IMG/VR virus record: IMGVR_UViG_3300042558_004148
Location: 124,001 to 188,000 of that record
Source: a virus
Strand: one strand, 5' to 3'
DNA: 64,000 nucleotides
The position numbers were made by a program, and so were the translations under genes. The notes under the pieces are model-generated. The model did no database searches. It worked only from the letters and a program-made list of their open reading frames with translations, and was not told the DNA's origin. This document shows, in pieces, positions 1 to 63,956 of this stretch; within the stretch, counting starts at the first letter, position 1, and each line of letters begins with the position of its first letter.

Positions 1-291
1 CCTAAAGGATCAAGTAAAGAGGAGAAAAGTTCAAATAAGTTTACTAAGGACGAACTAAAAGCTAAAAAGACTGAAATCCTTAATAAATGGGAAAGGGATA
101 ATATTGGTGATAAAAAAGTTACCGATGCTGATGCTGAAAAGTTCTATAAATCTGGAGTGATCAAGGGTAAAAAATACTTCGGGAAGGATTTTGATCCAGC
201 AAACCCTAAGAATAAGGAAGAGGAAATGTACGCCGATTATATGAATGGTATAATGGAGAGGTATTATAAAAAGACAAGCAATGCACAATAA
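1..291 (+). CDS. 3' end of a lysine-rich protein of unknown function (partial)
   Basis: An open frame runs in from the left edge and stops with TAA at 289-291, giving 96 visible residues. They are rich in Lys, Asp, Glu and Asn, with no recognisable motif or membrane segment. The reading frame overlaps the ATG of the next gene by 11 bases, the usual tight phage packing, so the two are probably co-transcribed. The start lies outside the window. Function unknown. Confidence 0.6.
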   Translation, partial: PKGSSKEEKSSNKFTKDELKAKKTEILNKWERDNIGDKKVTDADAEKFYKSGVIKGKKYFGKDFDPANPKNKEEEMYADYMNGIMERYYKKTSNAQ

Positions 292-1204
292 AACGCTATC
301 ATTTAATAACTTTGTAATTTTATTAGAGGGTGGTGCCGCTATTAAAACATCTAGAAGAATAAGGGAGGATGAGTTTGAAGAAACACTAGCCTCAATAAAG
401 AGCATATTGTTGCCGATTATTGGTGTAAATCCCAATTCATCTGCTGGTGAATACATCGTTATTGGAAGCATAGGGAAAAAGAAAAATCCAGATGATACAT
501 CGGGTGATCTTGATCTTGGACTTGATTCTAATTTATTCAATGTGCCACTAAAGGAGGTATCTGGATATATTTATTCGATATTAAGTGGATCGGAAGAGCT
601 AACAAGCAAATTGGGATTCGAACCTGAAATAAATTATTTGAAGGGACTAAATATAGTAAGTATAGGATGGCCTATAAACGGTGATCAAACTAACGGAATT
701 GTACAGCTTGATTTAATACCCGTTGCTGATATGGAATGGGCAAAGTTTATCTACTATTCACCTGACTACAAAACATCTGAAAGTAAATATAAATCAGCTC
801 ATAGAAACTGGTTACTTGCTGCTATATTAGCAATACGTAGAATGGTATTGGATGTTAACGATGCTGGAGAAGTTATGGATTATGATTCACCTGTGCTGAT
901 ATTAAGCGATGGTTTATATTGGCATACTAAATCATACAGAGGCAAACTAAAACCTAGATTAAAGAATGCTGCCAAGATAAGCGGAAGCGAGAGATTTATA
1001 ACTAGAGATCCTCAGGAATTTATAGACTTTGCATTGGGTACAGGTTATTCAATCAATGACGTTAAAACATTCGAAAAGTTATACCAGATTATAGATTCAC
1101 CTAGTTTTGAACTTTATGATAAGGTTGGCGAAATAGAGGAAAAGTTCCTCGAATATATTACTAGAGCAAATTTAGAGAGGCCCTCCGAAATAAAAAGAGC
1201 TTAA
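281..1204 (+). CDS. Tagged nucleotidyltransferase-fold protein
   Basis: A 307-residue protein. Residues about 64-82 contain a GS-x(10)-GDLDLGLD arrangement, the helix-turn plus paired acidic residues of the polymerase-beta-like nucleotidyltransferase fold, in which the Asp residues bind metal and NTP. A second acidic position, QLDLIPV, lies near residue 145. The substrate cannot be read from the sequence. The N-terminus (KTLSFNNFVILLE) matches the F-x-x-F peptide shared by many proteins of this phage. It precedes a ligase-like gene, so a role in nucleic-acid end processing is possible but only inferred. The start ATG overlaps the preceding gene. Confidence 0.6.
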   Translation: MHNKTLSFNNFVILLEGGAAIKTSRRIREDEFEETLASIKSILLPIIGVNPNSSAGEYIVIGSIGKKKNPDDTSGDLDLGLDSNLFNVPLKEVSGYIYSILSGSEELTSKLGFEPEINYLKGLNIVSIGWPINGDQTNGIVQLDLIPVADMEWAKFIYYSPDYKTSESKYKSAHRNWLLAAILAIRRMVLDVNDAGEVMDYDSPVLILSDGLYWHTKSYRGKLKPRLKNAAKISGSERFITRDPQEFIDFALGTGYSINDVKTFEKLYQIIDSPSFELYDKVGEIEEKFLEYITRANLERPSEIKRA

Positions 1205-1240
1205 TCTTATATAAATATAAAGATAAAATTAAAATTAAAT

Positions 1241-3322: not shown

Positions 3323-3323
3323 A

Positions 3324-3863
3324 ATGACAAAAATTGCAACTTTCGGACAATTTGTAAGTAATATGAATGAGTCTGATGGATTTGGTACTTCCCCATTTCT
3401 AATGAAAAAAAACGGGGATTTATATCATTATTTCTTTAATCTTGATATGGAGAATGAAGAGGTTAGAGGATTCCACCTCATAATCGGGAAATATTCGGAT
3501 CATGGTAATATAGAAGGTGCTAAGAATTCGTATGGTGTACTAACATTAAATGAAATTTCACCGGAAGTAATAGAGGATATCGCTGTAGATAAGGAAGATA
3601 TCCCACAGACAGATAAGAATAAATTTAAGATGGGATCTAACGAGCTATCTAGGCTAATGGAGTATGTTTATAAATGTGTTACTGATTACTTGGAGCTTAA
3701 TTCAAAGGTAACTAGAATATATGACGAGATTCAAGATAATCTCCAGTATGAGGGTAAAGGTACATATATGGAATACATGAAATCTATGTCGGTTTCACAA
3801 TTAGGCGGAAATTGGTCAGTTCAGGAAGGATCTGATAAGAATTCAGTTATTCTTAGCAGATAA
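3324..3863 (+). CDS. Tagged protein of unknown function
   Basis: I chose the ATG two bases after the upstream stop, giving 179 residues. It begins MTKIATFGQFVSNMNES, one of the clearest copies of the shared F-x-x-F...E peptide, which supports this start over the longer upstream frame. The rest is a mixed alpha/beta sequence without signal peptide, membrane segment or known motif. It follows the ligase fusion as part of the same run of genes. Function unknown; virion association is inferred from the N-terminus only. Confidence 0.65.
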   Translation: MTKIATFGQFVSNMNESDGFGTSPFLMKKNGDLYHYFFNLDMENEEVRGFHLIIGKYSDHGNIEGAKNSYGVLTLNEISPEVIEDIAVDKEDIPQTDKNKFKMGSNELSRLMEYVYKCVTDYLELNSKVTRIYDEIQDNLQYEGKGTYMEYMKSMSVSQLGGNWSVQEGSDKNSVILSR

Positions 3864-9761: not shown

Positions 9762-9770
9762 GATATATAG
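9762..9770 (+). promoter_or_regulatory. GATATATA-class promoter candidate, leaderless spacing
   Basis: GATATATAG ends three bases before the ATG at 9774. GATATA is exactly 6 bases from the ATG, as at three other tagged or small genes, which would place the transcription start at or next to the A of the start codon. Confidence 0.5.
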
Positions 9771-9773: not shown

Positions 9774-10187
9774 ATGAGAAACATCAAGAGTTTTAAAGAC
9801 TATAATCCCAATGATGAATATAGGGTAGATTCAAGGAGGTCATTAGATCTTGATAGGGTAAGAAGAACCAAGGAATATAGAAGATTAATAAATCTTGGAT
9901 TTTCTGAGGAAACATCTGACCAGCAGGCTCTTAATAACACCATGAAGTTCGTAAGAACTAAACATAAGCAGAGGGAGAAGGGTCACAGTGATGTTTTTTA
10001 TACGATACATCCATCCGGAACAGTTAGAAGATATAATCCCATAAAATCCGATGATGTTCCACAGGGTAACGGTAACGATATAAAGAAATATATAATACCA
10101 TTCAGAAAATCATCAGATTATAAAAAGGCTCTAGATTACCTATGGCAATATATAAAGAGAAAAGAAGATAACGAAGACTTTAGATAA
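9774..10187 (+). CDS. Tagged basic protein of unknown function
   Basis: A 137-residue, strongly basic protein. It begins MRNIKSFKDYNPNDE, a copy of the shared N-terminal peptide (F-x-x-Y, then an acidic residue). The body is rich in Arg/Lys/Tyr with alternating charged residues and no known fold motif. Basic charge plus the tag would suit an internal head protein contacting DNA; this is inference. The next gene starts two bases after the stop. Confidence 0.6.
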   Translation: MRNIKSFKDYNPNDEYRVDSRRSLDLDRVRRTKEYRRLINLGFSEETSDQQALNNTMKFVRTKHKQREKGHSDVFYTIHPSGTVRRYNPIKSDDVPQGNGNDIKKYIIPFRKSSDYKKALDYLWQYIKRKEDNEDFR

Positions 10188-12529: not shown

Positions 12530-12831
12530 TTATTTTTTTTCGAACTTTTCTCGTTAAATGCCCCTTTGATATATTCAGCTACATCGGAGCCAGTTTTTTT
12601 ACCTTCCGATAGGAAATTATTAAATTCCTCTGATTTACCTTCGTTGTCTAGAAATTCATGGAAATACGAAGCTTCGTACATTGCATCCACCACTTCCGGT
12701 AAGGGTTGGTGTGCTGGTGTATAATTTCTGGAATTTACTCTTGGTGCATATTCGTTACCTGGAACATCAACGCTACCCGGAGCATCCAGCCATTCATTAA
12801 CACAATCTTTAAAGTTTTTGATATTTTTCAT
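12526..12831 (-). CDS. Tagged protein of unknown function
   Basis: A 101-residue protein beginning MKNIKNFKDCVNEWLD, a copy of the shared N-terminal peptide with F-x-x-C in place of F-x-x-F and an E at the expected position. The middle is Pro/Asn-rich, the end is helical and charged. A GATATATA box lies upstream. Not otherwise recognised; virion cargo is inferred from the tag. Confidence 0.6.
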   Translation of the reverse strand: MKNIKNFKDCVNEWLDAPGSVDVPGNEYAPRVNSRNYTPAHQPLPEVVDAMYEASYFHEFLDNEGKSEEFNNFLSEGKKTGSDVAEYIKGAFNEKSSKKNN

Positions 12832-12837: not shown

Positions 12838-12845
12838 TATATATC
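12838..12845 (-). promoter_or_regulatory. GATATATA-class promoter candidate
   Basis: Minus-strand GATATATA, with GATATA 8 bases before the ATG at 12831. Confidence 0.45.
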
Positions 12846-18405: not shown

Positions 18406-19035
18406 ATGGAATCTAAAATAAAAGCATTTAACGAATTTTTAAACGAAAGAGAACTTCCGGATAATCAGGGTAAAATCCTGGTTATTTTGGGAGCTCCCGG
18501 ATCAGGGAAGGGAACTCTATCAAAGGAACTAAATAAGGAATATGGTATACATCATATTTCAACCGGAGATCTTATTAGAAATTCAGACGATCCGGAATTA
18601 AAAAAAATAATATCAGGAGGCAACTTTATATCTGATGATATGATGGTAAAGATGCTAAGAGGTGAACTTAAAAAATTAGATCCTTCCAATGGAATTATTT
18701 TTGACGGATTTCCTAGAAATCTTAAGCAATCAAAAAAATTAGATTCAATCCTGGGAAAAATGGGGCTCGGTCTAAACCATGCCATATTTCTAGATCTGCC
18801 GGAGGATATCTCGAAGGAAAGAATTAGAGAAAGAGCTAAGAAGGAAAATAGAAAGGATGATGGTAGCGACGAGATAATAGATAAGAGATTCGAGGAATAT
18901 AATGATAAAACTTTACCTTTGTTGGACTTCTATAAGAAGAGCAGAAAATTAATTACAATAGATGCTAACACCGGGAGAGAAGGAGTCTTAAAATCAGTAG
19001 CTAAAAAACTAGGACTTAAAAAGCCAAAAAAATAA
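18406..19035 (+). CDS. adk: Tagged adenylate kinase
   Basis: A 209-residue protein. After a 22-residue N-terminal extension (MESKIKAFNEFLNERE, the shared peptide) comes a complete adenylate kinase: P-loop LGAPGSGKGTLS, the AMP-binding STGDLIR, FDGFPRNLKQ and the lid-proximal RIRERAKKE, ending KRFEEYNDKT. It interconverts ATP+AMP and 2 ADP. The lid is short, without a zinc finger. The extension is not part of the kinase fold, which is the best single argument that the peptide is a targeting tag. It is the last recognisable nucleotide gene of the nrd operon. Confidence 0.9.
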   Translation: MESKIKAFNEFLNERELPDNQGKILVILGAPGSGKGTLSKELNKEYGIHHISTGDLIRNSDDPELKKIISGGNFISDDMMVKMLRGELKKLDPSNGIIFDGFPRNLKQSKKLDSILGKMGLGLNHAIFLDLPEDISKERIRERAKKENRKDDGSDEIIDKRFEEYNDKTLPLLDFYKKSRKLITIDANTGREGVLKSVAKKLGLKKPKK

Positions 19036-21017: not shown

Positions 21018-21569
21018 ATGAAACATCTTTTAGAATTTGATTCTTATTCTCCTATGGATGAAGCCGAGGTAAAAGCAGGAGTTCCAGTATATAACGAGGA
21101 TGAGTTCAATAAAAATACCAGTGCTAAACCAGCTATGGTCGTTAAAGTTCCTGAAATTATATCAGTTTTAAATAAATTTATTGCTGATCAGGAAAGTGGT
21201 GAAGTTGAAAAAATCGTAGTTCTAGCTGAGATTCCATCGCAAGGTAAAAATGCACCTAAGTATGTTCTTGATGATGCAGCAGCTGAAAGAGAAAGACAAA
21301 TACAAAGAAAAACCGCTATCTACGGAAGTAGAACGGAGAGATCTGATAGACCTGAAGACGACGAGCAAACAGATGCAATCAACATATTTGTTGATTCCGA
21401 GTTTATAGTAAAGGGAGTTATTAATAAATTAGGTAAAGATTATATTTTAGGTATCCCAGAATCTAAGAAAAAGAAAGCTGAATCTAGTAAAGAAATGATG
21501 GACTATTACACTGTTGAAATTGAACCTAGACAAGTATTTGAAATATTCTTCTCTCCTAAGGGAATGTAA
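21018..21569 (+). CDS. Tagged protein of unknown function
   Basis: A 183-residue protein beginning MKHLLEFDSYSPMDEAE, matching the shared peptide (F-x-x-Y then E). The rest alternates beta strands (KIVVLAEIPSQ) with a charged Arg/Glu-rich loop and ends in VEIEPRQVFEIFFSPKGM. It has its own GATATATA box and terminator, so it is a single-gene unit. Not recognised; internal virion protein is inferred. Confidence 0.6.
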   Translation: MKHLLEFDSYSPMDEAEVKAGVPVYNEDEFNKNTSAKPAMVVKVPEIISVLNKFIADQESGEVEKIVVLAEIPSQGKNAPKYVLDDAAAERERQIQRKTAIYGSRTERSDRPEDDEQTDAINIFVDSEFIVKGVINKLGKDYILGIPESKKKKAESSKEMMDYYTVEIEPRQVFEIFFSPKGM

Positions 21570-30271: not shown

Positions 30272-30279
30272 GATATATA
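30272..30279 (+). promoter_or_regulatory. GATATATA-class promoter candidate
   Basis: GATATATA 26 bases before the ATG of the tagged RimK/RimB-like fusion. Confidence 0.5.
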
Positions 30280-30305: not shown

Positions 30306-31766
30306 ATGTTATTAAATAAGAAGGTATTAAATTTCGTTTCTTTCTTGAATGAATCAAAGACTGACGGAATAAAGGTTATAGTTCTTACTGGGAATGTAAA
30401 GGGTAGTAAAACATCTGAATCATTCAAGGAAGAATGTGAAAAAATGGGAGCTGAATGTCACGTTGTTGATGTGAACGAAGCTGTATTGGAAGCCGTGTAT
30501 AACGGACATCTTATAAAGATGGACGGAGAACAGATTCTGATAGATCCAAATTCGACTGTGATTGTTCCGCGAAGAGGTGTATTGGAAAATTCACACACTA
30601 AGCAAATATTGCTATCTTTGGAGGAAGCAAGGTATTTTACAGTAAATAGCTTGGAATCGATGGAGGTTTGCGAAAATAAATTCATTACATCGAAGATAAT
30701 GGAAGAGCATGGATTACCTGTTCCTAAATATGCTCTAGTACCCAACGAGGATGCACTTGATAGAGCACTTGAAGAGATTGGTGGTAAATTCCCGGTTATA
30801 ATGAAATTATTATCAGGAACACAAGGAATCGGAGTTTCTATAGTTGATTCCTATGCATCTTTAAAATCTGTATATCAAACAATCAGAAAACTTGATGATA
30901 CAAATGAGATATTGATACAGGAGAAAATTGATTCAAAATCTGATTTAAGAATTCAGGTAATAACCAAAAAAATAGATCCACTAAATCCAACTAAAGACAA
31001 TTGTATTATACTGGGATCTATGAAAAGGGATGCTGTTGATAAGGACTTTAGAACTAATTACTCTTTAGGTGGAAGCGTTTCTAAATACGAAATAGACGAT
31101 GAACTAGTAGATATCGCATGCAGAGCAGCTAATGCAGTAGGATGTCATTGGTGTGGAGTTGATATTATGATTGATAGTAAGACTAAAAAGCCTTACATTC
31201 TGGAAGTTAATTCATCCCCCGGTACTGAGGGTATATCTAAAGCTATAGGTAAACCGATTGTGGAGGATGTTCTTGATTATATACTAAACAAAGACAACTG
31301 GTCACAATCTGACCTTGAAATAGGATATCTCGAAACATTAACAGTTCCTGGAATTGGTAGAATGGTTGCTAAGTTTGATACTGGTAACGGTGCTAGATCT
31401 TGCACATTACATGCAGACGAAGTAGAAGAGCTGGATGGAAAATTAGTTTGGCAGGTTGGTAAGAAAAAATTTGTCAATGAAATAATTGAATATTCGGATG
31501 CTGAAGTTGGTAGGGACGTACACACAAGACCAGTTATAGAAATTGATTTAGTTTTTAATAATGTAACTGTACCTAAAGTAAAGGTATCTCCCGTTGATAG
31601 AACAGAGAAGAGCACACCGTTTTTAGCAAATAGAGCATTTATGAGAAAACTTGGATTAGTAGTTAATCCAGATAAAGCTTTCGTAGTAAGTGGTGAGCTA
31701 GAAGATAAATATAGTGCAGGATCATCTAAGGGTGAAGCCCATGCAGGAATAGAATTTGAAAAATAA
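30306..31766 (+). CDS. Tagged RimK-like ATP-grasp ligase fused to a RimB/retropepsin-like protease
   Basis: A 486-residue protein from ATG 30306. It begins with the shared peptide (KKVLNFVSFLNES). Residues about 95-325 are an ATP-grasp ligase of the RimK type: KFPVIMKLLSGTQGIGVSIV, EILIQEKI, CHWCGVDIMID and PYILEVNSSPGTEGI carry the ATP and Mg contacts. Residues about 340-470 match the RimB/DUF785 family: VAKFDTGNGARSCTLHADEV has the D-T-G of retropepsin-like proteases. RimK adds Glu to ribosomal protein S6 and RimB trims it in bacteria; one chain carrying both could edit glutamylation of host proteins. The target is inferred. Confidence 0.82.
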   Translation: MLLNKKVLNFVSFLNESKTDGIKVIVLTGNVKGSKTSESFKEECEKMGAECHVVDVNEAVLEAVYNGHLIKMDGEQILIDPNSTVIVPRRGVLENSHTKQILLSLEEARYFTVNSLESMEVCENKFITSKIMEEHGLPVPKYALVPNEDALDRALEEIGGKFPVIMKLLSGTQGIGVSIVDSYASLKSVYQTIRKLDDTNEILIQEKIDSKSDLRIQVITKKIDPLNPTKDNCIILGSMKRDAVDKDFRTNYSLGGSVSKYEIDDELVDIACRAANAVGCHWCGVDIMIDSKTKKPYILEVNSSPGTEGISKAIGKPIVEDVLDYILNKDNWSQSDLEIGYLETLTVPGIGRMVAKFDTGNGARSCTLHADEVEELDGKLVWQVGKKKFVNEIIEYSDAEVGRDVHTRPVIEIDLVFNNVTVPKVKVSPVDRTEKSTPFLANRAFMRKLGLVVNPDKAFVVSGELEDKYSAGSSKGEAHAGIEFEK

Positions 31767-32376: not shown

Positions 32377-32697
32377 ATGAAAAAAATACTAGAATTTGAA
32401 GATTTTTTAGAGAATGATCTTGAATTAGACGAAGCTCAGAAAGCAATGCTTAGAGATTGGATCACTAAATATGAGAAATACTTTAATTTCCATGATAGTG
32501 GTAGTTTTATCGATTCCATAGACGATATAACTAATGATGCAATAGCACAATTAGGCATAGATAAGAGTAAGCATGATGCTGTCCAGAGTTACCTTGAAAG
32601 CCTATATGATCTCTCCGATGGCATATCAGTTATAATGGCTCCCGGAATAGAATTTCAATATACGAACATAGACCAGGTTCAGAGATTCCAATATTAA
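32377..32697 (+). CDS. Tagged protein of unknown function
   Basis: A 106-residue acidic protein starting MKKILEFEDFLENDLELDE, an archetypal copy of the shared peptide. The remainder is helical (AMLRDWITKYEKYF, HDAVQSYLESLYDL) with a hydrophobic end. Divergently arranged with the acidic protein whose C-terminus carries the same peptide. Function unknown; virion cargo inferred. Confidence 0.6.
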   Translation: MKKILEFEDFLENDLELDEAQKAMLRDWITKYEKYFNFHDSGSFIDSIDDITNDAIAQLGIDKSKHDAVQSYLESLYDLSDGISVIMAPGIEFQYTNIDQVQRFQY

Positions 32698-35653: not shown

Positions 35654-36106
35654 ATGAACCTTAGAAGATTGAAGAAAAGAATGAGTCTAAATTTCGTTAG
35701 ATTCTCTAGAATAGCCACTGGGAGATCCTCGGAGATTAAGCATAGGAGAAGCAAGAACGAGAGAATGATTATCAGAATTGTTAGATCAGTCATTAATGTA
35801 CCCGATAGTAGGGTATATTATTCACCTAAGAGTTCTAGATTTTTTCTGCATACGAAGGATCGGAGATATATTATATCAATGGATTCAGAATCCATTAGGA
35901 TAACGAATCATCATTTCTTTTTCAATAGTGATCTTAGAAGCAGTGTTTCGGATGAGCTGATGGGTCTTGCATTTTCCAGAATCGAGGAGGATATGATAAA
36001 ACTGGAATCTGCATCTATCTTTAATGAGAACATATTTCTTAATGAGGTTTATTCATCGATTAAGGAAAATAGTGAGATAATGGTCGGAATGCCGGTAGAA
36101 GAATAA
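35654..36106 (+). CDS. Basic protein of unknown function
   Basis: A 150-residue protein with an Arg/Lys-rich first 45 residues (NLRRLKKRMSLNFVRFSR), a beta-rich middle (FFLHTKDRRYIISMD) and an acidic helical end. First gene of the unit that continues with methylglyoxal synthase 17 bases later. The charge pattern would allow nucleic-acid binding. Not recognised. Confidence 0.55.
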   Translation: MNLRRLKKRMSLNFVRFSRIATGRSSEIKHRRSKNERMIIRIVRSVINVPDSRVYYSPKSSRFFLHTKDRRYIISMDSESIRITNHHFFFNSDLRSSVSDELMGLAFSRIEEDMIKLESASIFNENIFLNEVYSSIKENSEIMVGMPVEE

Positions 36107-36122
36107 AAATAAAAAGCAGTGA

Positions 36123-36500
36123 ATGAGAATAGCGGTAATAGCACACGATAACAAGAAGGCAGATATGGTTGCATTCGTAATGAAGCGACTGGATTTCTTT
36201 TCAAAAATTGAAATTGTAGCAACTGGAACTACAGGAACACACATAGAACATGCGGGTTTAGATGTAGATCTAAAAAAATCAGGACCTCAAGGAGGTGATG
36301 CACAAATTGCAGCTGAACTTGTGGAGGGAAAGATCGATATGATATTATTTTTCATAGATCCATTAACATCCCATGCACATGAAGTTGACGTACAAATGTT
36401 ATTAAGATTGTGTAATGTGTATAATATACCGATTGCTACAAACTACTCCACTGCTGATCTTCTAATAAGATCAATCAAAAATAACAAATCGCAGGAATGA
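36123..36500 (+). CDS. mgsA: Methylglyoxal synthase
   Basis: A 125-residue protein with the complete MgsA core: IAVIAHDNKKADMV at the N-terminus, ATGTTGTHIEH (phosphate-binding loop), KSGPQGGDAQIAAEL with the catalytic Asp, IDMILFFIDPLTSHAHEVDV with the His that polarises the substrate, and NIPIATNYSTADLLIRS. It converts dihydroxyacetone phosphate to methylglyoxal and phosphate. The bacterial enzyme relieves phosphate-starved glycolysis but makes a toxic aldehyde that attacks guanine and Arg. Its gene overlaps the next by four bases. The benefit for a phage is unknown. Confidence 0.92.
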   Translation: MRIAVIAHDNKKADMVAFVMKRLDFFSKIEIVATGTTGTHIEHAGLDVDLKKSGPQGGDAQIAAELVEGKIDMILFFIDPLTSHAHEVDVQMLLRLCNVYNIPIATNYSTADLLIRSIKNNKSQE

Positions 36501-37153
36501 GAATAATTTTTATATCAGATACACACACCCAACATCATGAGCTCGATTCACACTTGGACTCATTATATTTGGAGGACAATAACAGCATACTAGTACACTG
36601 TGGTGATATCTCATCAAGAGGTAGAGGATATGAAGTTGAGGATTTTTTTATCTGGTATGATTCATTACCTTTTAAAAATAAGATAATGATCGCGGGTAAC
36701 CATGATTTTCTTTTTGAGAAAAATCCAGATGCAGCCAAAAATCTACTGGATGAATACGGAAAATCAATAATTTACTTGGAGGACAGTGGTGTAGAAATAG
36801 AAGGCGTTAAATTCTGGGGAAGCCCAGTAACCCCTTGGTTTTATGACTGGGCATTTAATAGAAGAGAGGATATACAGAATCATTGGGATCTTATACCTGA
36901 AGACACAAACGTTCTAATAACTCATGGCCCACCATTCGGTATTCTCGATGTTACATATAGGGAGAGAATGCATGTTGGCTGCCCATTATTGAGAAGCAAA
37001 ATAGAAACTCTGAAAGACCTTAAAATTAGCGCTTTTGGGCATATACACGAGGCTTTCGGTACTGATAATATAAATGATGTTCATTATGTTAATGCGAGCT
37101 TTGTAACGCTTAGATATGACCCGTTAAACCATCCCATCGTAATAGATTTATAA
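36497..37153 (+). CDS. Calcineurin-like metallophosphoesterase
   Basis: A 218-residue protein with all metal-binding motifs in order: FISDTHTQHHEL (D-x-H), LVHCGDISSRG (G-D), IAGNHDFLFE (G-N-H-D), ITHGPPFGILD and FGHIHEAFG (G-H-x-H). The family cleaves phosphomonoesters or diesters; the arrangement is like bacterial YfcE/MJ0936-type enzymes or 2',3'-cyclic phosphodiesterases. It overlaps mgsA by four bases, so they are co-translated. Substrate not evident. Confidence 0.85.
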   Translation: MRIIFISDTHTQHHELDSHLDSLYLEDNNSILVHCGDISSRGRGYEVEDFFIWYDSLPFKNKIMIAGNHDFLFEKNPDAAKNLLDEYGKSIIYLEDSGVEIEGVKFWGSPVTPWFYDWAFNRREDIQNHWDLIPEDTNVLITHGPPFGILDVTYRERMHVGCPLLRSKIETLKDLKISAFGHIHEAFGTDNINDVHYVNASFVTLRYDPLNHPIVIDL

Positions 37154-37223
37154 AAATTACATTTTTTTTATTTGTTTATGAAATATAATCAACCAAATGT
37201 GATAGAATTAATAAACCAAATAA

Positions 37224-38003
37224 ATGAAGACTTTTTATAAACCCTCGGTAGCAATCAAATGGACTAAGGACCGATTGAAAGATTATGGCTACACAGTAAA
37301 AACAGAGAAATGGCAAGGTATAGATTCGCCAGATGATATGTGGGAGGTGATGAATCACTCTTTCCAATTTTTTATACCTCATACTCTGGAAGAACTTGTA
37401 AGCGAGGTTAAACCGAATCTTCCCTGGGCAGATGACCATTTCAGGGAAAGAGTAGGTGGTCTTCCGTTAAATCCTCCACCCTCTCATGAATGGTGGCCCT
37501 TTTCTCAGAAGAATAATGAACAGTTCGGCGGAAACACACAATTTTCTCATACGTATCCTGAAAGAATATGGCCGAAAAATTCTGGGCCAGACGGGGATTC
37601 AGTACATTTGGAGGGTATCAGATTTAAGTATGGCGATCTTGGTGACGTTGTTAATCTATTGGAAAAAGAACCTTATACTAGACAAGCATTCTTACCGATT
37701 TGGTTCCCTGAAGATACCGGAACCGTACATGGGGAAAGGGTACCATGCACCATAGGATATCAATTTATGAGGAGAGGGGATCATTTCCATATGGTTTATT
37801 ATATAAGATCCTGTGATTATATTAGGCATTTTAGAGACGACGTTTATATGGCTTGCAGAAAGCTTATGTGGATTCTTGATATATTGAAGGAAAGAAATCC
37901 TGATCTGTGGGGAAATGTTACACCCGGATATTTCGCCATGCACATAACTTCCCTGCATTGTTTTAATAGCGAGAAGACAGTTTTAAAAATGAATAATAAA
38001 TAA
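37224..38003 (+). CDS. 42: Thymidylate synthase-superfamily protein resembling T4 dCMP hydroxymethylase
   Basis: A 259-residue protein. TS-family elements are in order: FSHTYPERIW (like the YGRQWR region), RQAFLPIWFPE, RVPCTIGYQF with the catalytic Cys, RSCDYIRHFRDDVYM and ITSLHCF with the conserved His. In thymidylate synthases the RSxD block ends in P-F-N; here it is F-R-D-D, with Asp where dUMP enzymes have Asn. T4 gp42, as I recall it, has the same C-T and F-R-N-D features and makes hydroxymethyl-dCMP. A canonical ThyA is encoded separately at 48.8 kb, which supports a different job for this one. Confidence 0.7.
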   Translation: MKTFYKPSVAIKWTKDRLKDYGYTVKTEKWQGIDSPDDMWEVMNHSFQFFIPHTLEELVSEVKPNLPWADDHFRERVGGLPLNPPPSHEWWPFSQKNNEQFGGNTQFSHTYPERIWPKNSGPDGDSVHLEGIRFKYGDLGDVVNLLEKEPYTRQAFLPIWFPEDTGTVHGERVPCTIGYQFMRRGDHFHMVYYIRSCDYIRHFRDDVYMACRKLMWILDILKERNPDLWGNVTPGYFAMHITSLHCFNSEKTVLKMNNK

Positions 38004-38004
38004 T

Positions 38005-38163
38005 ATGGAAAAGTGTATAAAAGATTGCTTAAGAGCTATAGAAAAAACCTATCCAAATAATTATGAGTATGGAAGTAAAATGAGAATTTTTATGGATTAC
38101 ATAAAGGAGGAAAGAACAGAAGAAGAAATTTTAATTTTTACCGAAACACTTAATAAAAAATAG
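38005..38163 (+). CDS. Small protein of unknown function
   Basis: A 52-residue open frame (MEKCIKDCLRAIEKTY...) filling the gap between two genes, with one base before and three after. Helical and charged, with two Cys near the N-terminus. Codon use (ATA, AGA) is like its neighbours, which supports it as real. Confidence 0.5.
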   Translation: MEKCIKDCLRAIEKTYPNNYEYGSKMRIFMDYIKEERTEEEILIFTETLNKK

Positions 38164-38166
38164 ATT

Positions 38167-38457
38167 ATGAGTCAAGAAATGAACCCATCAAAAGCATACT
38201 TTAAGCTAATTAAAGAACCTACGGAATCGATGGCTGAATATTACGTTAAGATGTTTAGAAGAAATCAGATGAAGTTTATAAGAAGATCAAGTTTAGATGT
38301 TGATCACTTAGGATCCGAATTTTCATACGAAGGTCTTAATCTAAAAATTCTTGGTGCATCTGATACTAGCACCATGGTGGTTAAGGATATAGATAATGAT
38401 AAATACTATCTTATACACTCCGACATAGTTACCAATTCAATCTTAATAAACAATTAG
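38167..38457 (+). CDS. Small protein of unknown function
   Basis: A 96-residue protein with a basic helix (YVKMFRRNQMKFIRRSSLD) and a beta-rich C-terminal half (LNLKILGASDTSTMVVKDIDN). Co-directional and tightly packed with its neighbours. Not recognised. Confidence 0.5.
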   Translation: MSQEMNPSKAYFKLIKEPTESMAEYYVKMFRRNQMKFIRRSSLDVDHLGSEFSYEGLNLKILGASDTSTMVVKDIDNDKYYLIHSDIVTNSILINN

Positions 38458-38460
38458 GCC

Positions 38461-38682
38461 TTGATTGAATATATTATAAAGACTGATAATCCTGAGATTC
38501 ACATACAGGTATGTGAAATAATATCCATAATGGGTGTTACAATAATCGATGATAAATTCGGCGAATCTGAGGATGGATTTTATGGTTATTTTAGATTGAA
38601 CGGTAACGAGGATTCATTTGAGATACTTTCAGAATTTCCAAATGTTGTCCTGGAGCTTCCAAAGGATAAAATACTGAGATAA
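38461..38682 (+). CDS. Small protein of unknown function, TTG start
   Basis: A 73-residue frame opening with TTG three bases after the upstream stop; no ATG is available before residue 24. The fold looks like alternating strands and helices (YIIKTDNPEIHIQVCEIISI, GFYGYFRLNGNEDSFEIL). Real on the evidence of codon use and packing. Function unknown. Confidence 0.45.
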   Translation: MIEYIIKTDNPEIHIQVCEIISIMGVTIIDDKFGESEDGFYGYFRLNGNEDSFEILSEFPNVVLELPKDKILR

Positions 38683-38727
38683 AATAATATATCAACTTTA
38701 TTTAGATCACTTCTTCATATCCGACAT

Positions 38728-38735
38728 GATATATA
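38728..38735 (+). promoter_or_regulatory. GATATATA-class promoter candidate
   Basis: GATATATA 32 to 41 bases before the possible starts of the coiled-coil membrane protein. Confidence 0.45.
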
Positions 38736-38767
38736 GTTAGGATATTCTTTTGATTGGGCAAAACCAA

Positions 38768-39163
38768 ATGATTATCATGGAGGAAAATAACAACATTAGT
38801 CAGACACTTCTGATGAAGCAAATTTTAGACGAGATTTCTAGATTGAAGTCCACGATGCCTAATGGTGAGTTAAAACACCTACAGGATGCAGTCGAGGGAC
38901 TTAGACTAGATCAAAAATCCTTGAAGGAGGATGTTTCTGATATAAAGAAGAAATTACTTGATCCAGATACTGGTGTTATCGTTAAGGTTAACGAGAACAC
39001 CAAGTTTAGGGTACAAGAGGAAAGTAGATATGAGGACTATTTGCAATTTAACGTTGATCTTAATGATCTTAAGAAATGGCAAAGCGGAATAAATAAAGCA
39101 ATGTGGATTATATTCACTGCTATAGCTGCTATTGCTCTTAAGGTTATATTCGGTGTTGGATAA
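38768..39163 (+). CDS. Coiled-coil protein with a C-terminal membrane anchor (XhlA-like)
   Basis: A 131-residue protein from ATG 38768 (ATG 38777 is also possible). A long helical region with heptad-like spacing (LLMKQILDEISRLK, LQDAVEGLRLDQKSLKEDVSDIKKKL) is followed by one C-terminal membrane helix (AMWIIFTAIAAIALKVIFGVG). This is the layout of XhlA-type haemolysin/holin accessory proteins, though other anchored coiled coils look the same. Its own GATATATA box suggests late expression. Confidence 0.55.
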   Translation: MIIMEENNNISQTLLMKQILDEISRLKSTMPNGELKHLQDAVEGLRLDQKSLKEDVSDIKKKLLDPDTGVIVKVNENTKFRVQEESRYEDYLQFNVDLNDLKKWQSGINKAMWIIFTAIAAIALKVIFGVG

Positions 39164-45782: not shown

Positions 45783-46223
45783 ATGAATAAAATAGCTTCA
45801 TTCGAAGATTTTAAAAAATCAAAAGCTGCACCTTCTATTAAGGAGGAGCATGGAGAAGAACATGGTGGTGATCCACAACATTATATGTTCTTTCAGAATC
45901 TTGCATCTATCAAACATTATATTGATGAGATTCTTAAAATGGAACCAGAGCAAGTTGATAACATGCTGAAAAATGGGCATGATTGGGCAGCTGATCATAT
46001 CGCTACATCTAAAGATGATATTCAGGAAGTTGCTGAGTGGATTAGAAATGAAATGGAAAATCCAGGTCACGAGGAGGAAAGCGGAGACGACGAACTAGCT
46101 GAACCTGAGGTAGATAATATCATCGTTAATATCGAGGGTGAAGATGATGATAAGGAAGATGAAGAAGAGGAAGACGACGATGAAGATGAAGATGATGACG
46201 AAGAGGAGGAAGAAGAAGCTTAA
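45783..46223 (+). CDS. Tagged protein with an extreme acidic tail
   Basis: A 146-residue protein beginning MNKIASFEDFKKSKAAP, a clear copy of the shared peptide core. The middle is helical (HYIDEILKMEPEQVDNMLKN) and the last 40 residues are almost all Asp and Glu. It is a single-gene unit with promoter box and terminator. A highly acidic head-core protein, like T4 internal scaffold components, is the natural comparison. Confidence 0.62.
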   Translation: MNKIASFEDFKKSKAAPSIKEEHGEEHGGDPQHYMFFQNLASIKHYIDEILKMEPEQVDNMLKNGHDWAADHIATSKDDIQEVAEWIRNEMENPGHEEESGDDELAEPEVDNIIVNIEGEDDDKEDEEEEDDDEDEDDDEEEEEEA

Positions 46224-46322: not shown

Positions 46323-46958
46323 ATGGAAGTAAATTTCTCCGATTCGTTTGCAAAGAGCCTTAAGAGGTTAACATGGCACGAAAGTAAATTATATAAAACG
46401 TATTCGGTATTTCGCTATGATATACCAAGATTTATCAGGAATGTTTGGAGGTTTAGAAAACCACTGATGAATCACTACTGGTGGGACCATCATTCAACTC
46501 TGGAATTTGTAAGAATCTCATTGGATCATATGTCAGTTAATCTCGAAGAGAAAGGATTGGAAATAGATAAACCTAGAATGAAAAAGGTTAATGCCATGAG
46601 AAGAGCTTCACAGATCATTCAAAATTACAACGAGGACAATTACATAGAGATGGCCGAGGCAGAGCTTGGCGAAATTATACATCATCCATGGGAATTCGAA
46701 GACGTTGAAGGAAAGCCTGGGCTTAGTAGATTGGTTGATAAGGATACTGAAGAGGAAAAAATTCATAATAGAAAAGTTTATGATAGAACCAGGGAGATCT
46801 CTGAGGCTGAATGGAAGGAGCTTTGGATCATATTCAGTGGACAAAATCATGATGAATATAAGGAAATATACGAAAAATTAAATGAGGAGGAAAAGAAAGA
46901 AGAAAACCACTACTACAATTGGTTTGACGGAACCGATATGCGAGGATGGTGGGATTAA
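46323..46958 (+). CDS. Conserved phage protein of unknown function
   Basis: A 211-residue protein rich in Trp, His and charged residues. HYWWDHHSTLEFVR, IHHPWEFEDVE and a C-terminal YYNWFDGTDMRGWWD stand out; the last motif recurs, as I recall, in hypothetical proteins of other large myophages. The many His/Trp/Asp could form a metal site. It overlaps the next gene by 77 bases, an unusually long overlap here. Confidence 0.55.
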   Translation: MEVNFSDSFAKSLKRLTWHESKLYKTYSVFRYDIPRFIRNVWRFRKPLMNHYWWDHHSTLEFVRISLDHMSVNLEEKGLEIDKPRMKKVNAMRRASQIIQNYNEDNYIEMAEAELGEIIHHPWEFEDVEGKPGLSRLVDKDTEEEKIHNRKVYDRTREISEAEWKELWIIFSGQNHDEYKEIYEKLNEEEKKEENHYYNWFDGTDMRGWWD

Positions 46959-47571
46959 TCCTACCAAAATAAAGCATTCGGAAAAGAGCATACAGAAACT
47001 TCTCGAGAGCAGATTTGATATAAGTAACATTAAATTCGTTGTTTCAAATCTCTACCTATTTAGACATAATTGGGAAAGCGATTTTCTGGTGGTCCAGAGA
47101 AATTCTGGATATTGCTATGAGATAGAGATCAAAATAAGTAGAGCGGATTTCCTTAATGACTCTAAAAAAGTCGATAAACATTCTATATTGAAAGACGGTA
47201 CATACCTGGTTAAGAAATATAAATACCGATGGGATAAGGAACTTAATAAAAGTGTTAGCGAACATAATTTCATACCTACAGAATGGAAATTTAGACCTAA
47301 TAAATTTTATTATTGTGTACCCGAGGGACTTATTAAACCAGAGGAAGTTCCTGAATATGCCGGACTTATGTACGTTAATGAGTTTGGTGTAACTACAGTA
47401 AAGGAGCCAAAATTTATTCATAAGGAAAAGCTAGCTCTAGAAAAGCCTCTATGTGATAAATTTTATTATTATTGGAGGAATGAGAAAAATAATAACATCT
47501 CGCTAATAAAGGAGATTGCTAAATTCAAAAATGAAATTGGTATCCTTAACGAGAAGCTAAATAAAAATTGA
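46882..47571 (+). CDS. MmcB-like PD-(D/E)XK nuclease-fold protein
   Basis: A 229-residue protein. ESDFLVVQRNSGYCYEIEIKISRADFLND contains the D-x(n)-E-x-K core of the PD-(D/E)XK fold (split: ESDFLVV, then YEIEIKISRADF), and FYYCVPEGLIKPEEVPEYAGLMYV is typical of MmcB/DUF2161-like DNA repair proteins. The first 30 residues overlap the upstream gene; a downstream TTG start near 46921 is possible. DNA damage processing is the likely role. Confidence 0.6.
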   Translation: MRRKRKKKTTTTIGLTEPICEDGGINPTKIKHSEKSIQKLLESRFDISNIKFVVSNLYLFRHNWESDFLVVQRNSGYCYEIEIKISRADFLNDSKKVDKHSILKDGTYLVKKYKYRWDKELNKSVSEHNFIPTEWKFRPNKFYYCVPEGLIKPEEVPEYAGLMYVNEFGVTTVKEPKFIHKEKLALEKPLCDKFYYYWRNEKNNNISLIKEIAKFKNEIGILNEKLNKN

Positions 47572-56154: not shown

Positions 56155-57564
56155 ATGGAAAAAGTATATAATTTTAATCAGTTTTCAAAACTGTACGAAT
56201 CGCAATCTTCTAATTTACAAAATATTATAATTGGAGATTCTCTAACCCCGCTAATTGCTAAGAATTCTATTGATGTGGATATTTTAGGTCCGGTTGGATC
56301 TGAAGCTAACTTATGGAAATCCGGTGTTAATACAGAATGGCTTAAAAAAGCTGTTGCTAAATTTCCAACAACACAATCCATCAAGAATGTAGTAATAAAA
56401 ATTGGTACTAATAGCGGATTTAGTATCAGGGATGACGTGAGAGGTCTATTTATAGAGCTAAGAAGGGCATTCCCAGAAGCCAAATTCTTTGTGGTACAGG
56501 GATCTTGGGGATGGGGGAATAACAAGAATGTTACTGCTGCCAAAGTGAAAGCTTATTATGAGCTTTTCTCTAAAGAGGGAGCAACGGTAATAGAACCGCC
56601 AGTTGGATATTCACCAACATCTGCAAAGGCACATAGTGAAACTCAAGCAATTAAGGAGATCGGTAAGAATTTAGACCTTGCTATACAGGAGAGTGTAAAT
56701 AATTCAATTTTGGAAACCCCGACACTGACAGATTCAGAGATAATTGTAAGAAAGGGTGATCCATATAAATATAAGGTTGTTAATGATCATTGGTTAGCTA
56801 AGAGAGACGACCAGTCAAGATGGTATGAAATTACAGGTAAGGATTTCAAACCAGGATTTCAGGTATCCATAAATATTCTAGATTCAGAAAATCCAACGCT
56901 TAGATCAAACGTTGCACCAAAGAGAGAAAATAGAATTAAATCAGGAGAGGTTAACAAGGATATTGAAACTGACGAAACATTTCTACCACTAGGTCTCGGT
57001 GCTGATCCAGAAAAGATAGATCCTAGAATTGCAGAAAAATATAATTTCCATATAATCCCGGACGGTAAAAAAACTAATTACAGGAGTGCTCAGTTTCCTC
57101 TTGATATCATGAGGAACGTTTATACTAAATATAACGTTAAAAACGTAATTAGGTTAAATGATGATGGGAAGGATGGTAAACATCTACCTCTTCAGAGATC
57201 AGTTTCAATAGAAAAAGAGATGGAATTATGCAAAGAAATAGGATGCGATTTCTATAAGCTCTCGCCAACGGAAGATCAGGATAAGATAAATGAATTATTA
57301 TCCAAGGGAAACACACTAATACATTGTGCACATGGATCTGATAGAACTGGAGGATCTGTTGGGGGATATCTATATAAAACTAAATTAAATCCAGAATTAT
57401 CTACCACTGAAAATATATGGAAATATACAACCCAATATAATGATTGGAATAGCATCGTTACTAAGAATCCGGATGATTTTTTGGATGATGTTTATTTGAA
57501 ACAAGCTCAGAAATTCGGAGTAAAAGATATAGAGGATGCAAAAAGACTCGCTAAACTAAATTAA
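56155..57564 (+). CDS. Tagged fusion of an SGNH-type hydrolase and a dual-specificity-type phosphatase
   Basis: A 469-residue protein. It begins with the shared peptide (MEKVYNFNQFSKLYESQ). Residues about 22-180 look like an SGNH/GDSL hydrolase: IIIGDSLTPLI (catalytic Ser), VVIKIGTNSGFS (block III Gly/Asn) and a late His. A small middle segment (YKVVNDHWLAKRDDQSRWYE) follows. Residues about 290-430 match cysteine phosphatases: VIRLNDDG and IHCAHGSDRTGGSVGGYL, the H-C-x-x-G-x-D-R-T-G loop with Cys nucleophile and Arg. Substrates could be esters, sugars, proteins or lipids. The tag suggests delivery with the DNA. Confidence 0.75.
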   Translation: MEKVYNFNQFSKLYESQSSNLQNIIIGDSLTPLIAKNSIDVDILGPVGSEANLWKSGVNTEWLKKAVAKFPTTQSIKNVVIKIGTNSGFSIRDDVRGLFIELRRAFPEAKFFVVQGSWGWGNNKNVTAAKVKAYYELFSKEGATVIEPPVGYSPTSAKAHSETQAIKEIGKNLDLAIQESVNNSILETPTLTDSEIIVRKGDPYKYKVVNDHWLAKRDDQSRWYEITGKDFKPGFQVSINILDSENPTLRSNVAPKRENRIKSGEVNKDIETDETFLPLGLGADPEKIDPRIAEKYNFHIIPDGKKTNYRSAQFPLDIMRNVYTKYNVKNVIRLNDDGKDGKHLPLQRSVSIEKEMELCKEIGCDFYKLSPTEDQDKINELLSKGNTLIHCAHGSDRTGGSVGGYLYKTKLNPELSTTENIWKYTTQYNDWNSIVTKNPDDFLDDVYLKQAQKFGVKDIEDAKRLAKLN

Positions 57565-58689: not shown

Positions 58690-58692
58690 AGA

Positions 58693-60818: not shown

Positions 60819-60839
60819 ATTAGTTTTGGTTTTTTATTT

Positions 60840-60847: not shown

Positions 60848-60872
60848 CCCATAACCAAAAAAAATACGTACA

Positions 60873-60904
60873 TTTTTTTGTTCCGTAATCATAAATTACA
60901 TTTG
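60873..60904 (+). promoter_or_regulatory. Host-type promoter (T7G, 16 bases, TACATTTG)
   Basis: T7G at 60873-60880, a 16-base spacer starting TTCCG, TACATTTG at 60897-60904. The first 13 bases match those of the promoter at 35602 except one. The transcription start would fall at about 60908, past ATG 60906. Confidence 0.7.
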
Positions 60905-60923
60905 CATGAAAATAAAAAGACGT

Positions 60924-61283: not shown

Positions 61284-61302
61284 TATATCGAATATAAATA
61301 AT

Positions 61303-61995: not shown

Positions 61996-62107
61996 TATAA
62001 GCTAAAATAAAAGCTTTTAGTGACGTCTTTTATTTTTACTGATGTAGATGCATTAAAATGTATTTAATCCGGTAGGGATAAAAAAAATCAATAAAAAATC
62101 AATAAAA

Positions 62108-62139
62108 TTTTTTTATCCCGAGTTGTGGTCTTATATTTG
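62108..62139 (+). promoter_or_regulatory. Host-type promoter (T7A, 16 bases, TATATTTG)
   Basis: T7A at 62108-62115, a 16-base spacer beginning TCCCG, TATATTTG at 62132-62139. It starts the single-gene unit of the secreted protein at 62173. Confidence 0.72.
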
Positions 62140-62172
62140 TAATGTATTTAAAAACAAAAACAATTAAGAGAT

Positions 62173-62694
62173 ATGAAAAAGTTAATCGCAATCGCAGTTT
62201 TAATTATCGCATCGGTAACAACTGCACAGGTAAATGCTCAATCTAAAGAAACAGCATTTGAAAAAGAATTAATTAAATTCGTAGATAGCACAGTTAGTGC
62301 ATCAGGTAAAAATCTTACAAAGCTAGATAGATTTAAGGAAGGATGCTATACCCACGTGAAAGTAAAAAAATTCGGGGAAGCAGATACGCCATATAGTAGA
62401 TCTAAAGCACCTAGTCACAATATATTTAGCTACACCGCAGATAGTGAAGGTAATGGGAATATTAATCCGGAAAAATATGGTATTGAATTGGTTGAAAAAA
62501 CATATGCTTCACGAATCTCTAAGATATTAAATGATCCAGCAAATATTGAAGCGGGTTATGATTCATATTACTTCACAATTGTAACAATAAAAGGCTCTTA
62601 CTACTTAGTTTTTGCAATGGGATATTTAGATCCAGTAGACACGGACGAAAGAATGAATGCAGAATTTAATAAGTCAATGGAAACTACAAATTAG
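62173..62694 (+). CDS. Secreted protein of unknown function
   Basis: A 173-residue protein with a signal peptide (KKLIAIAVLIIASVTTAQVNAQS, here split; cleavage after AQVNA). The mature part aligns with the lipoprotein at 60924 over FVDSTVSASGKNLT and HNIFS, then continues with a longer C-terminal domain (YYFTIVTIKGSYYLVFAMGYL). It has its own host-type promoter and a bidirectional terminator, so it is an independent early gene. Probably periplasmic; function unknown. Confidence 0.65.
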   Translation: MKKLIAIAVLIIASVTTAQVNAQSKETAFEKELIKFVDSTVSASGKNLTKLDRFKEGCYTHVKVKKFGEADTPYSRSKAPSHNIFSYTADSEGNGNINPEKYGIELVEKTYASRISKILNDPANIEAGYDSYYFTIVTIKGSYYLVFAMGYLDPVDTDERMNAEFNKSMETTN

Positions 62695-62710
62695 AATCCA
62701 TATAAAAACA

Positions 62711-62745
62711 AAAAACCCTAGATAAAATATTATCTAGGGTTTTTT
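62711..62745 (+). terminator. Bidirectional Rho-independent terminator
   Basis: AAAAACCCTAGATAA pairs with TTATCTAGGGTTTTT around a short loop, with A and T runs on both sides, between convergent genes. Confidence 0.9.
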
Positions 62746-62762
62746 TGTTTTTTATGTTACGA

Positions 62763-63956
62763 TTAAGCTATAACGCTAGAATTTAATTGAATTACTGCCT
62801 GAGCTATAATGATTTTATCAGCCTTGTTTGAATCTTCAGATGCCATATAAACTAATTCAGGAGTTGTTTTATCAACTGGTGCTAAATATTCACCCTCAAC
62901 ATTAAGTGTAACTCTTCTCCAGGTCTTTCTGTCTTCAGTACTTGCTTTTGGTTGAATGTCTAATTTATCAGAAACCTTAACATCAGCAGCCTTGAAAGAG
63001 GTAGTTGATTTAATATAATCAGCAACCGCTTGAGCTCTTTCTTTACAAAGTGCTTCGTTTCTAGCTTTATCACCTTCTTGTGATGCACCACCAGTAACAG
63101 TAATACTATTAGCTGAAGCAACGTTACCTAGTGCTGCTAATATTGCAGCTTTACCTTCTTCTTTAAGAACTGATTTATTAACATCAAAAAGAGTGTTATC
63201 ATCCTGAATAACGATAGGTTTTAATGTTTCTGCAGTTGTTGTTTTTTGTCTTACGAACTGTATAATCTCCCTAGATTCATATTCAACACCACCTTGTGGA
63301 ACGATCTTAACAGGGTAATAGAAATAGTATTGTACAGATACATCTGATGAACCTTTTCTATCGGCAGGCTGTGGCTCGCTAACGAATCCAGATGGTGTCT
63401 TTAATAATTGATTCTTAACTGGACTATCATATCTCCACACTTTAGCGTCAAGTTTAGCTTGATTATCTACAATAAGGTATTGATTAACTGGACCTGATCC
63501 CGAAAGGAAATCACCATCATTTTTCTCACCTGATGTGAATTTCTTTTTACCGCTATCGTAATATGGATCCTTAAATCCACCAATATTTTTTAGGTTTAAT
63601 TTGGCTAAATATTGGGCAAACCCTATTCTTTTACCCGATCCATCAAGAACTGAACCACCCAAAAGATTCTTATATTCAAATTCTTGTAGATCGAAATCGA
63701 TGCTAGAAATCTCAGTTGCATCGGTTCTTGTCATATCTGATAGACAGCTACTAATACGACCCAAAGGTATTGCTTGTGAATAATTACCCTGATTAATTAC
63801 TTCCTCGATAGCACCTAATGCCTTTCTTCCTTTAGCATCCAGACCTTCAGCAGCTAATGCTGTTTTAAGTTCAGTGAAATCGCTTACTTTTAATCCTTCA
63901 TTAATAGCAAATTTTAAGAACTCGCTAAAGCTCTCGAATACTGGTTTATTTTCCAT
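62763..63956 (-). CDS. Tagged protein with a C-terminal OmpA-like domain
   Basis: A 397-residue protein. It starts MENKPVFESFSEFLKFAINEG, an extended copy of the shared peptide. Residues about 50-240 are a mixed region without known motif, in which SGSGPVNQYLIVDNQAK and WRYDSPVKNQ stand out. Residues about 250-365 resemble OmpA-C: TLFDVNKSVLKEEGKAAILA, ITVTGGASQEGDKARNEALC, ERAQAVADYI and WRRVTLNVEG. OmpA-like domains bind diaminopimelate in peptidoglycan. No signal peptide is present, so it is a virion rather than a membrane protein. A GATATATA box lies 30 bases upstream. Confidence 0.7.
   Translation of the reverse strand: MENKPVFESFSEFLKFAINEGLKVSDFTELKTALAAEGLDAKGRKALGAIEEVINQGNYSQAIPLGRISSCLSDMTRTDATEISSIDFDLQEFEYKNLLGGSVLDGSGKRIGFAQYLAKLNLKNIGGFKDPYYDSGKKKFTSGEKNDGDFLSGSGPVNQYLIVDNQAKLDAKVWRYDSPVKNQLLKTPSGFVSEPQPADRKGSSDVSVQYYFYYPVKIVPQGGVEYESREIIQFVRQKTTTAETLKPIVIQDDNTLFDVNKSVLKEEGKAAILAALGNVASANSITVTGGASQEGDKARNEALCKERAQAVADYIKSTTSFKAADVKVSDKLDIQPKASTEDRKTWRRVTLNVEGEYLAPVDKTTPELVYMASEDSNKADKIIIAQAVIQLNSSVIA

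Follow-up and report, generated by a model that had tools for sequence, protein, structure and literature searches.

The window analysed here, a stretch of 64,000 nucleotides, covers bases 124001-188000 of a virus record 373,485 bases long (IMG/VR record IMGVR_UViG_3300042558_004148), and eleven of its genes begin with a short peptide, hereafter called the tag, whose two elements are an F-x-x-F pair and a downstream [LI]-x-E (Table 1). The gene starts are our own ATG calls on unannotated records. The original prediction had described a shared N-terminal peptide at eleven starts and had compared it with the capsid-targeting sequence (CTS) of phage T4. All eleven starts (11/11) translated to the peptides described, so this part of the claim stood; the literal pattern given for them, K[ILV]xxFxx[FYC]x(3-6)E, was too strict and matched only 3/89 open reading frames (ORFs) of the window. 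Two of the eleven tags, those at 9774 and 32377, appear weak.

Table 1. Positions of the tags and of other features. Positions are those of the window, except for the portal genes, which are given in genome positions.
Feature	Position	Strand	Protein or context
Tag MHNKTLSFNNFVILLE	281..328	+	307-aa protein, probably pol-beta nucleotidyltransferase fold
Tag MTKIATFGQFVSNMNE	3324..3371	+	179-aa protein without assigned function
Weak tag candidate MRNIKSFKDYNPNDE	9774..9818	+	
Tag MKNIKNFKDCVNE	12793..12831	-	101-aa protein
Tag MESKIKAFNEFLNE	18406..18447	+	complete adenylate kinase
Tag MKHLLEFDSYSPMDE	21018..21062	+	183-aa protein
Tag MLLNKKVLNFVSFLNE	30306..30353	+	RimK-type ATP-grasp protein
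Weak tag candidate MKKILEFEDFLE	32377..32412	+	
Tag MNKIASFEDF(KKSKAAPSIKEE)	45783..45848	+	acidic 146-aa protein
Tag MEKVYNFNQFSKLYE	56155..56199	+	protein with GDS block and HCxxGxxR block
Tag MENKPVFESFSEFLKFAINE	63897..63956	-	OmpA-domain protein
GATATATA, candidate late promoter	30272..30279	+	5' of ATP-grasp gene
GATATATA	9762-9769	+	near 9774 start
GATATATA	12838-12845	-	near 12831 start
Other GATATATA elements	20988, 45758, 56143		
Portal genes	35879-37477 and 37482-39098		532 and 538 aa

In most of the homologue families tested, both elements of the tag were kept while the linker between them varied. In the family of the nucleotidyltransferase-like protein (281), the tag pattern, in a form that also allows Leu, was found in 22/22 distinct N-termini (29 of 30 loci were used, one partial locus being left out), and F8, F11 and E16 were invariant among 20 aligned. 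The tag of the ATP-grasp protein (30306) was present in 25/25 distinct N-termini from 37 loci, with N15 and E16 invariant and F10 and F13 conserved to at least 90% in 13 aligned. The adenylate kinase (18406) kept F-x-x-F and [LI]NE↓[RK]E (arrows mark inferred cuts) in 24/24 IMG/VR loci of 60-100% identity, which include many duplicates and comprise 14 distinct DNA versions. The codons of both the ATP-grasp and the adenylate kinase families differed at synonymous sites, and therefore selection acts on the peptide. The 3324 start sits within an ORF listed from 3285, and the homologous ORFs open at the equivalent of 3324 in 10/11, the readable ones; F-x-x-F and x-[NH]-E↓[SAN]DG were kept in 10/10 readable homologues of the 11 found, with a variable linker length. 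All members of the 21018 family (15/15) matched the pattern, and the tag was present in 5/5 distinct N-termini of the 56155 family (7 of 9 loci used, two partial loci left out), where other conserved blocks were also present. The 45783 family had F-x-x-F in all 9 loci, 6 of them divergent, and the downstream E was variable. F-x-x-[FY] was seen in 8/9 homologues of the 32377 protein and was absent in 1/9, and no conserved [LI]-x-E was found among these 9. For 9774 only three loci were found, all identical, and no divergent homologue; the OmpA-domain protein (63956) likewise had only 3 IMG/VR loci, identical to each other.

The frequency of the tag was compared with chance using a two-element pattern, [FY]xx[FYWC]-x(0-8)-[ILMVFY]xE within residues 1-24, with expected counts taken from internal protein stretches. 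This pattern, written after the N-termini of the window and of a further 80 kb had been viewed, matched 14/89 ORFs of the window (3.2 expected, P = 4e-6) and 8/92 ORFs in those 80 kb, which come from other parts of the genome (2.4 expected, P = 0.003). A slightly wider form (residues 1-28), fixed before the next 40 kb were viewed, matched 12/79 ORFs there, against 1.9 expected. Over the first 144 kb, 19/181 ORFs matched the [LIM]xE form, where 4.9 were expected (P = 6e-7), and a motif model obtained by expectation maximization (EM), for which the T4 CTS was the seed and five other phages the training set, found 9/181 here, against 2.6 and 3.1 under two nulls. The prior of the EM was fixed because a free prior, which also reached the motif, called 70% of the ORFs tagged and was rejected. 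If the excess is extrapolated, this genome would encode some 50 tagged proteins, an estimate and not a count. A hand-picked set of nine window enzymes, which serve DNA or nucleotide metabolism or chaperoning and which are not a blind control, gave no match to the pattern.

The tag was also investigated in related phages, the five huge ones being sampled as 50-kb stretches and not as whole genomes. By major capsid protein (MCP), the nearest members of the phage collection were LR756500, LR745206, LR756502, LR756504 and LR756501 (metagenomic, 462-735 kb), and other near relatives were Lak, Tenacibaculum PTm1, Sphingobacterium PAU and Flavobacterium MaF61. According to the sections of PMC7162821 used here, the largest genomes of that study together with Lak form the Mahaphage clade, and the predicted host of the largest is Bacteroidetes. 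A T4-CTS-seeded motif model trained without the tested phage (leave-one-phage-out, cut 7 bits) matched 15/177 N-termini in LR756500, 20/115 in LR745206, 24/138 in LR756502, 17/186 in LR756501 and 13/57 in LR756504, whereas internal stretches predicted 2.2-3.5 and shuffled N-termini 1.8-5.0, so that an excess was seen in 5/5 huge relatives. Summed over the six phages, the matches numbered 98/854, where internal stretches gave 17.1 and shuffled N-termini 21.9; because the phages used for training and for testing are relatives, the excesses are not fully independent. A second, longer model gave 10, 14, 27, 16, 11 and 9 matches (sum 87) in LR756500, LR745206, LR756502, LR756501, LR756504 and this phage, respectively. 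A count of 170/673, obtained on training data, was dropped as an estimate. The scan of related phages and of the other stretches of this genome that the original prediction had proposed thus gave an excess in this genome and in the five huge relatives.

The two elements could also be seen separately in these phages. Aromatic pairs at spacing 3 numbered 244 against 173 expected (ratio 1.41; 854 ORFs, six phages), and with ratios of 0.81-1.20 for spacings 1, 2 and 4-7 only spacing 3 stood out. In the training phages [LIVMFY]xE occurred at residues 9-20 in 46.5% of tagged and 21.9% of untagged proteins, and equally at residues 31-42. The two-element pattern was significant in LR745206, LR756501 and LR756504; the tags of LR756500 and LR756502 are often shorter. 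The fixed T4 register (K/R at 2, hydrophobic at 4, aromatic or Leu at 7) was enriched in LR756500, LR745206, LR756502, LR756504 and PAU and not in LR756501 (P = 0.36; 5000 permutations). A run of small genes in LR756502 (locus L019, 18540-26158), many of which start MKHLK[KSR][FY]NE, is a possible payload cassette.

Outside the five huge relatives, phiKZ showed no tag excess in its 50-kb stretch, and MaF61, PTm1 and Lak-B1 showed none in most tests, the exceptions being MaF61 2/46 (P = 0.047), Lak-B1 8/111 against 2.95 and PTm1 3/49 against 1.25. No tag variant was seen by eye in the N-termini of PTm1 and MaF61 (one stretch each). The peptide might, as had been pointed out with the prediction, have been just as frequent in non-head proteins of unrelated phages; no consistent excess was found in phiKZ, MaF61 and PTm1, apart from the isolated exceptions in the last two. 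The N-terminal extensions of phage bS21 proteins (PMC7162821, in the part used here) were tried as a tag and rejected: PF01165 was found in 5/14 records, in short open frames (64-73 aa), and the three that could be read start MLI[IV], with no tag.

The head genes of the phage are of T4 type. The record encodes two adjacent T4-type portals (Portal_T4, both above the Pfam cut-off); a head with two portals, as these genes could imply, would be unusual. The prediction had suggested looking for a gp21-like protease, and the S77 protease was indeed found in the genome, as a gp21-type Peptidase_S77 match (E 3.4e-9, above the cut-off) inside a 656-aa protein in which the protease is fused with a scaffold-like domain. 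The gene of a gp23-like MCP (phrog_138, major head protein) lies directly 3' of this fusion, and further tagged genes follow 3' of the MCP gene at genome positions 54668, 55817 and 56700. Among nine records, the S77 protease was matched at E 0.001 in 9/9 and over the cut-off in 5/9. With its 373 kb and T4-type head, the phage is related to the largest phages known. The MCP propeptide site, HSLNE↓SAGAY, was present in 70/70 MCP N-termini read (out of 80 loci, ten unread), and its LNE is that of the tags FLNE↓R and FLNE↓S.

The scaffold part of the fusion contains a unit similar to the tag. Seven fusions were examined, and in five of them a 14-residue unit (…YSEY[LI]AE…) recurs 10-13 times, namely 13, 10, 10, 12 and 11 times in this phage, LR745206, LR756502, LR756501 and LR756504, respectively; these 56 repeats have the consensus KNIAYSEYLAENLD and a period of 14 with one gap of 28. 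They were picked by a pattern of aromatic residues and Glu, and the conservation of those columns (Tyr 55/56 twice, Glu 56/56) is partly by construction, whereas Ile (53/56), Ala (53/56), Asp (44/56) and the period are free of the selection pattern. From the 56 scaffold repeats only, a seven-column profile was made and scanned over 15,459 residues of T4 (59 ORFs, a 50-kb stretch), and the CTSs of IPII and IPIII came out on top with 14.7 bits, the next match having 10.7. On the N-termini of LR756501 the same profile matched 20/185, against 6.1 expected (P = 4e-6); the excess was marginal in LR756500 (13/177 against 6.8) and LR756504 (6/57 against 2.2). T4 inh (46327-47007 of the T4 stretch), annotated as a minor head protein and protease inhibitor, has the N-terminus MIDKDYIAELKALD and scored 8.7 bits with this profile.

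In PAU, a variant tag, MK[TS][LI]xxL[YF]E, was found on 18/248 ORFs in 180 of its 219 kb, against 1.0 expected (19 matches in all, one of another form). This variant is carried by the scaffolding protein gp152 and by the internal capsid proteins gp142, gp154 and gp199, names which are the depositor's and whose basis is unstated in the record. According to Table 1 of PMC5646251, N-terminal sequencing showed that the PAU MCP matures from 585 to 520 residues, and this published maturation point lies at most 1 residue from L-M-E64 of the 585-aa MCP in the record.

The repeated peptide, its two-part conservation, the protease-scaffold fusion and the spread through related phages were all observed by computation. 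In T4, as summarised in the part of PMC9026906 used here, the first ten residues of IPIII suffice, of which residues 4 and 7 serve mainly targeting and residues 8 and 10 processing, and gp21 cuts after L/I-x-E. The tag has in common with the CTS of IPI, IPII, IPIII and Alt a short N-terminal peptide, in which two hydrophobic or aromatic residues stand three positions apart, and an L/I-x-E junction, and the phage has in common with T4 the S77 protease and a T4-type portal and MCP. Unlike in T4, the tag stands on many unrelated proteins, including whole enzymes, and its linker is variable; also unlike T4, the scaffold is fused to the protease and built of tag-like repeats. We consider it highly probable, on these sequence comparisons, that the peptide is a T4-type CTS, which would bind the core, be cut by the protease and have its cargo packed for delivery, working as one scaffold repeat. 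The functional equivalence to the T4 CTS that had been predicted was borne out by most of the sequence tests (protease, two-part conservation, excess in the huge relatives, PAU capsid proteins) and was not supported by 9774, which had no divergent homologue, or by 32377, which had no cut site.

We infer that tagged cargo would be bound, cleaved, packaged and injected in the following way. The F-x-x-F element would bind the growing core inside the prohead, and the [LI]-x-E element would be the point at which the gp21-type protease cuts at maturation; the freed cargo would stay packed with the DNA and be available for delivery at the next infection. The scaffold ladder contains an [FY]-x-x-[FY]-[LI]-x-E unit, and therefore the tag probably passes for an additional repeat of the scaffold, by which cargo would enter the core and be set free by the very cuts that break the scaffold down. 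The resemblance between tag and repeat is likely to be the basis of targeting. Since the tag resembles both the T4 packing signal and the scaffold repeat, these viruses may deliver many ready-made proteins. A broader proposal, which we put forward only tentatively and which falls a little short of an even chance, is that CTSs are single copies of a scaffold repeat, that in the largest phages about a dozen units of 14 residues form the core as a ladder that cleaves itself, and that about a tenth of the proteins wear one such unit, join the ladder, are released by that protease and are injected as a ready-made takeover kit.

Other giant phages offer partial parallels. SPN3US and phiKZ also pack many head proteins that are cut after Glu by a gp21 relative, but most of their propeptides are described as much longer than the T4 CTS (PMC5694885 and PMC9026906, in the sections used). 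In PAU, too, scaffold and internal proteins bear tags, in some cases with a second site KLNE↓[AS]; PAU differs in that Leu replaces the aromatics and in that its scaffold is separate from the protease and without 14-residue repeats. In the parts covered of the literature searched (including PMC13282480, PMC9723584 and PMC5694885), we found no earlier description of tags like these for Bacteroidota or huge phages and no account of how the T4 CTS recognises the core. The link between the tag and the protease-fused scaffold repeats appears to be new. Many genes of huge phages have no assigned function, and a readable packaging tag would sort the delivered unknowns from sequence alone, give candidate host-takeover and anti-defence proteins and suggest how the T4 CTS recognises the core.

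Several results weigh against a CTS that works as a scaffold repeat. The repeat profile missed T4 IPI and found no good match in T4 gp67, gp68 and gp21, and one weak match in gp22. Its excess was marginal in this genome (13/180 against 7.3, P = 0.03), and there was none in LR745206 (4/114 against 7.3) or LR756502 (8/137 against 7.8). By this profile, therefore, tag and repeat are much alike in T4 IPII/IPIII and LR756501, and elsewhere the likeness is partial or missing. The repeats of the LR756500 fusion were degenerate by eye, and by the pattern no repeats were found in the PTm1 fusion or the PAU scaffold; therefore scaffold mimicry is not universal. The two-element pattern was not significant in LR756500 (8/177 against 4.9), LR756502 (4/138 against 2.7) or the T4 stretch (4/59 against 2.7). 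In PAU gp70, the fourth named internal capsid protein, no tag was found. Some proteins with strong scores in the huge relatives, namely a RecA-like, a transposase-like and an NFACT-R protein, are odd cargo or false calls.

Three further negative results from this genome would fit a peptide that is mainly a protease site combined with the ordinary Lys- and Phe-rich composition of N-termini, and not a targeting element. F-x-x-[FYWC] alone was not enriched in the window (17/89 against 13.2 expected), an unseeded, free EM run on the N-termini of the 89 window ORFs overfitted and failed to recover the motif, and the fixed T4 register of residues 2, 4 and 7 was not enriched in this genome (7/181 against 4.3, P = 0.12). 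However, shuffled N-termini of the five huge phages scored far lower than the real ones (log likelihood 162-197 against 432), only the aromatic spacing of 3 stands out, and homologues keep F-x-x-F while neighbouring residues and linker vary; we regard this composition-based explanation as quite improbable. Somewhat less improbable, though still unlikely, is recruitment by the tag to a site that is not the head, such as a replication compartment or the membrane, with the E incidental. Most of the tagged proteins scanned had no Pfam match, which would be compatible with such a role, but the PAU scaffold and 3/4 of its named internal capsid proteins wear the variant tag, the tag junctions match the conserved MCP propeptide site, and the tag unit recurs in the scaffold repeats. 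The tagged proteins could also descend from one duplicated internal-protein gene and share an N-terminus without present function. Tandem runs of tagged genes, such as that in LR756502 (L019, 18540-26158) and the run of small tagged genes at 308.0-314.6 kb of this genome, speak for common ancestry; yet the cargo is unrelated (ADK, RimK, OmpA, SLT), and the ATP-grasp family, at 49-100% identity, keeps the aromatics and xNE while its codons vary, so that this origin seems very improbable indeed.

The cargo of a T4-type CTS would, in this genome, include adenylate kinase, a RimK-type ATP-grasp protein, an OmpA-domain protein and a transglycosylase SLT protein, all of which are tagged, and a nucleotidyltransferase-like fold, for which the assignment is weak. 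The identities proposed earlier for the window were upheld by Pfam for ADK, RimK and OmpA, and by a weak fold match for the nucleotidyltransferase; RimB, SGNH and phosphatase had no Pfam match. The ADK match covers residues 27-179 of the 18406 protein and positions 1-149 of the 151 of the profile. The structure model of the 281 protein had a predicted local distance difference test (pLDDT) score below 50 for residues 1-17, and its Foldseek matches were weak (best E about 1e-3), nearly all of the 50 shown being nucleotidyltransferases. The RimB half of the 30306 protein and both halves of the 56155 protein were those without a Pfam match, and the model of the latter was poor (pLDDT 59.5). The GDS and HCxxGxxR blocks of the 56155 protein are presumably SGNH and phosphatase, judged by motif only.

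In the huge relatives, 82 strongly scored proteins were scanned (83 passed the cut, one copy being left out), and few of them matched Pfam. The matches included LRR, VWA-type, NUDIX, NFACT-R, transposase-like, RecA-like and a 2H phosphoesterase with a weak match to anti-CBASS Acb1. The untagged comparison (40 proteins used, of 60 drawn from 362; 20 dropped) filled a 25-family list, in which glycosyltransferases, DNA polymerase B and the prohead protease were included. The tagged 2H phosphoesterase, a protein of LR745206 (locus L018, 48257-49573), combines this domain (weak Acb1, below the cut-off) with an RNase T exonuclease domain. It is a candidate for an injected anti-defence protein.

A candidate late promoter element, GATATATA, was also found near several of the tagged genes. 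It was first picked on hand-listed tagged and structural genes (16/34, against 12/147), and lay 5' of 12/36 pattern-tagged ORFs and 24/233 other ORFs (P = 7e-4); in the later 40 kb alone the numbers were 4/12 and 4/67 (P = 0.016). Within 110 nt upstream it was present in 25/25 ATP-grasp types and 5/5 SGNH types (one locus each). Two points are to be added here to those listed above: GATATATA was picked after looking at the data, and within the same 110 nt it was upstream of 0/22 nucleotidyltransferase types.

Just beyond the window, on the minus strand at genome positions 188023-189444, a protein starting MIKSFKEKLEEASLQGNPGIPGEGGKPG has what may be a tag and, after it, a short collagen-like stretch.

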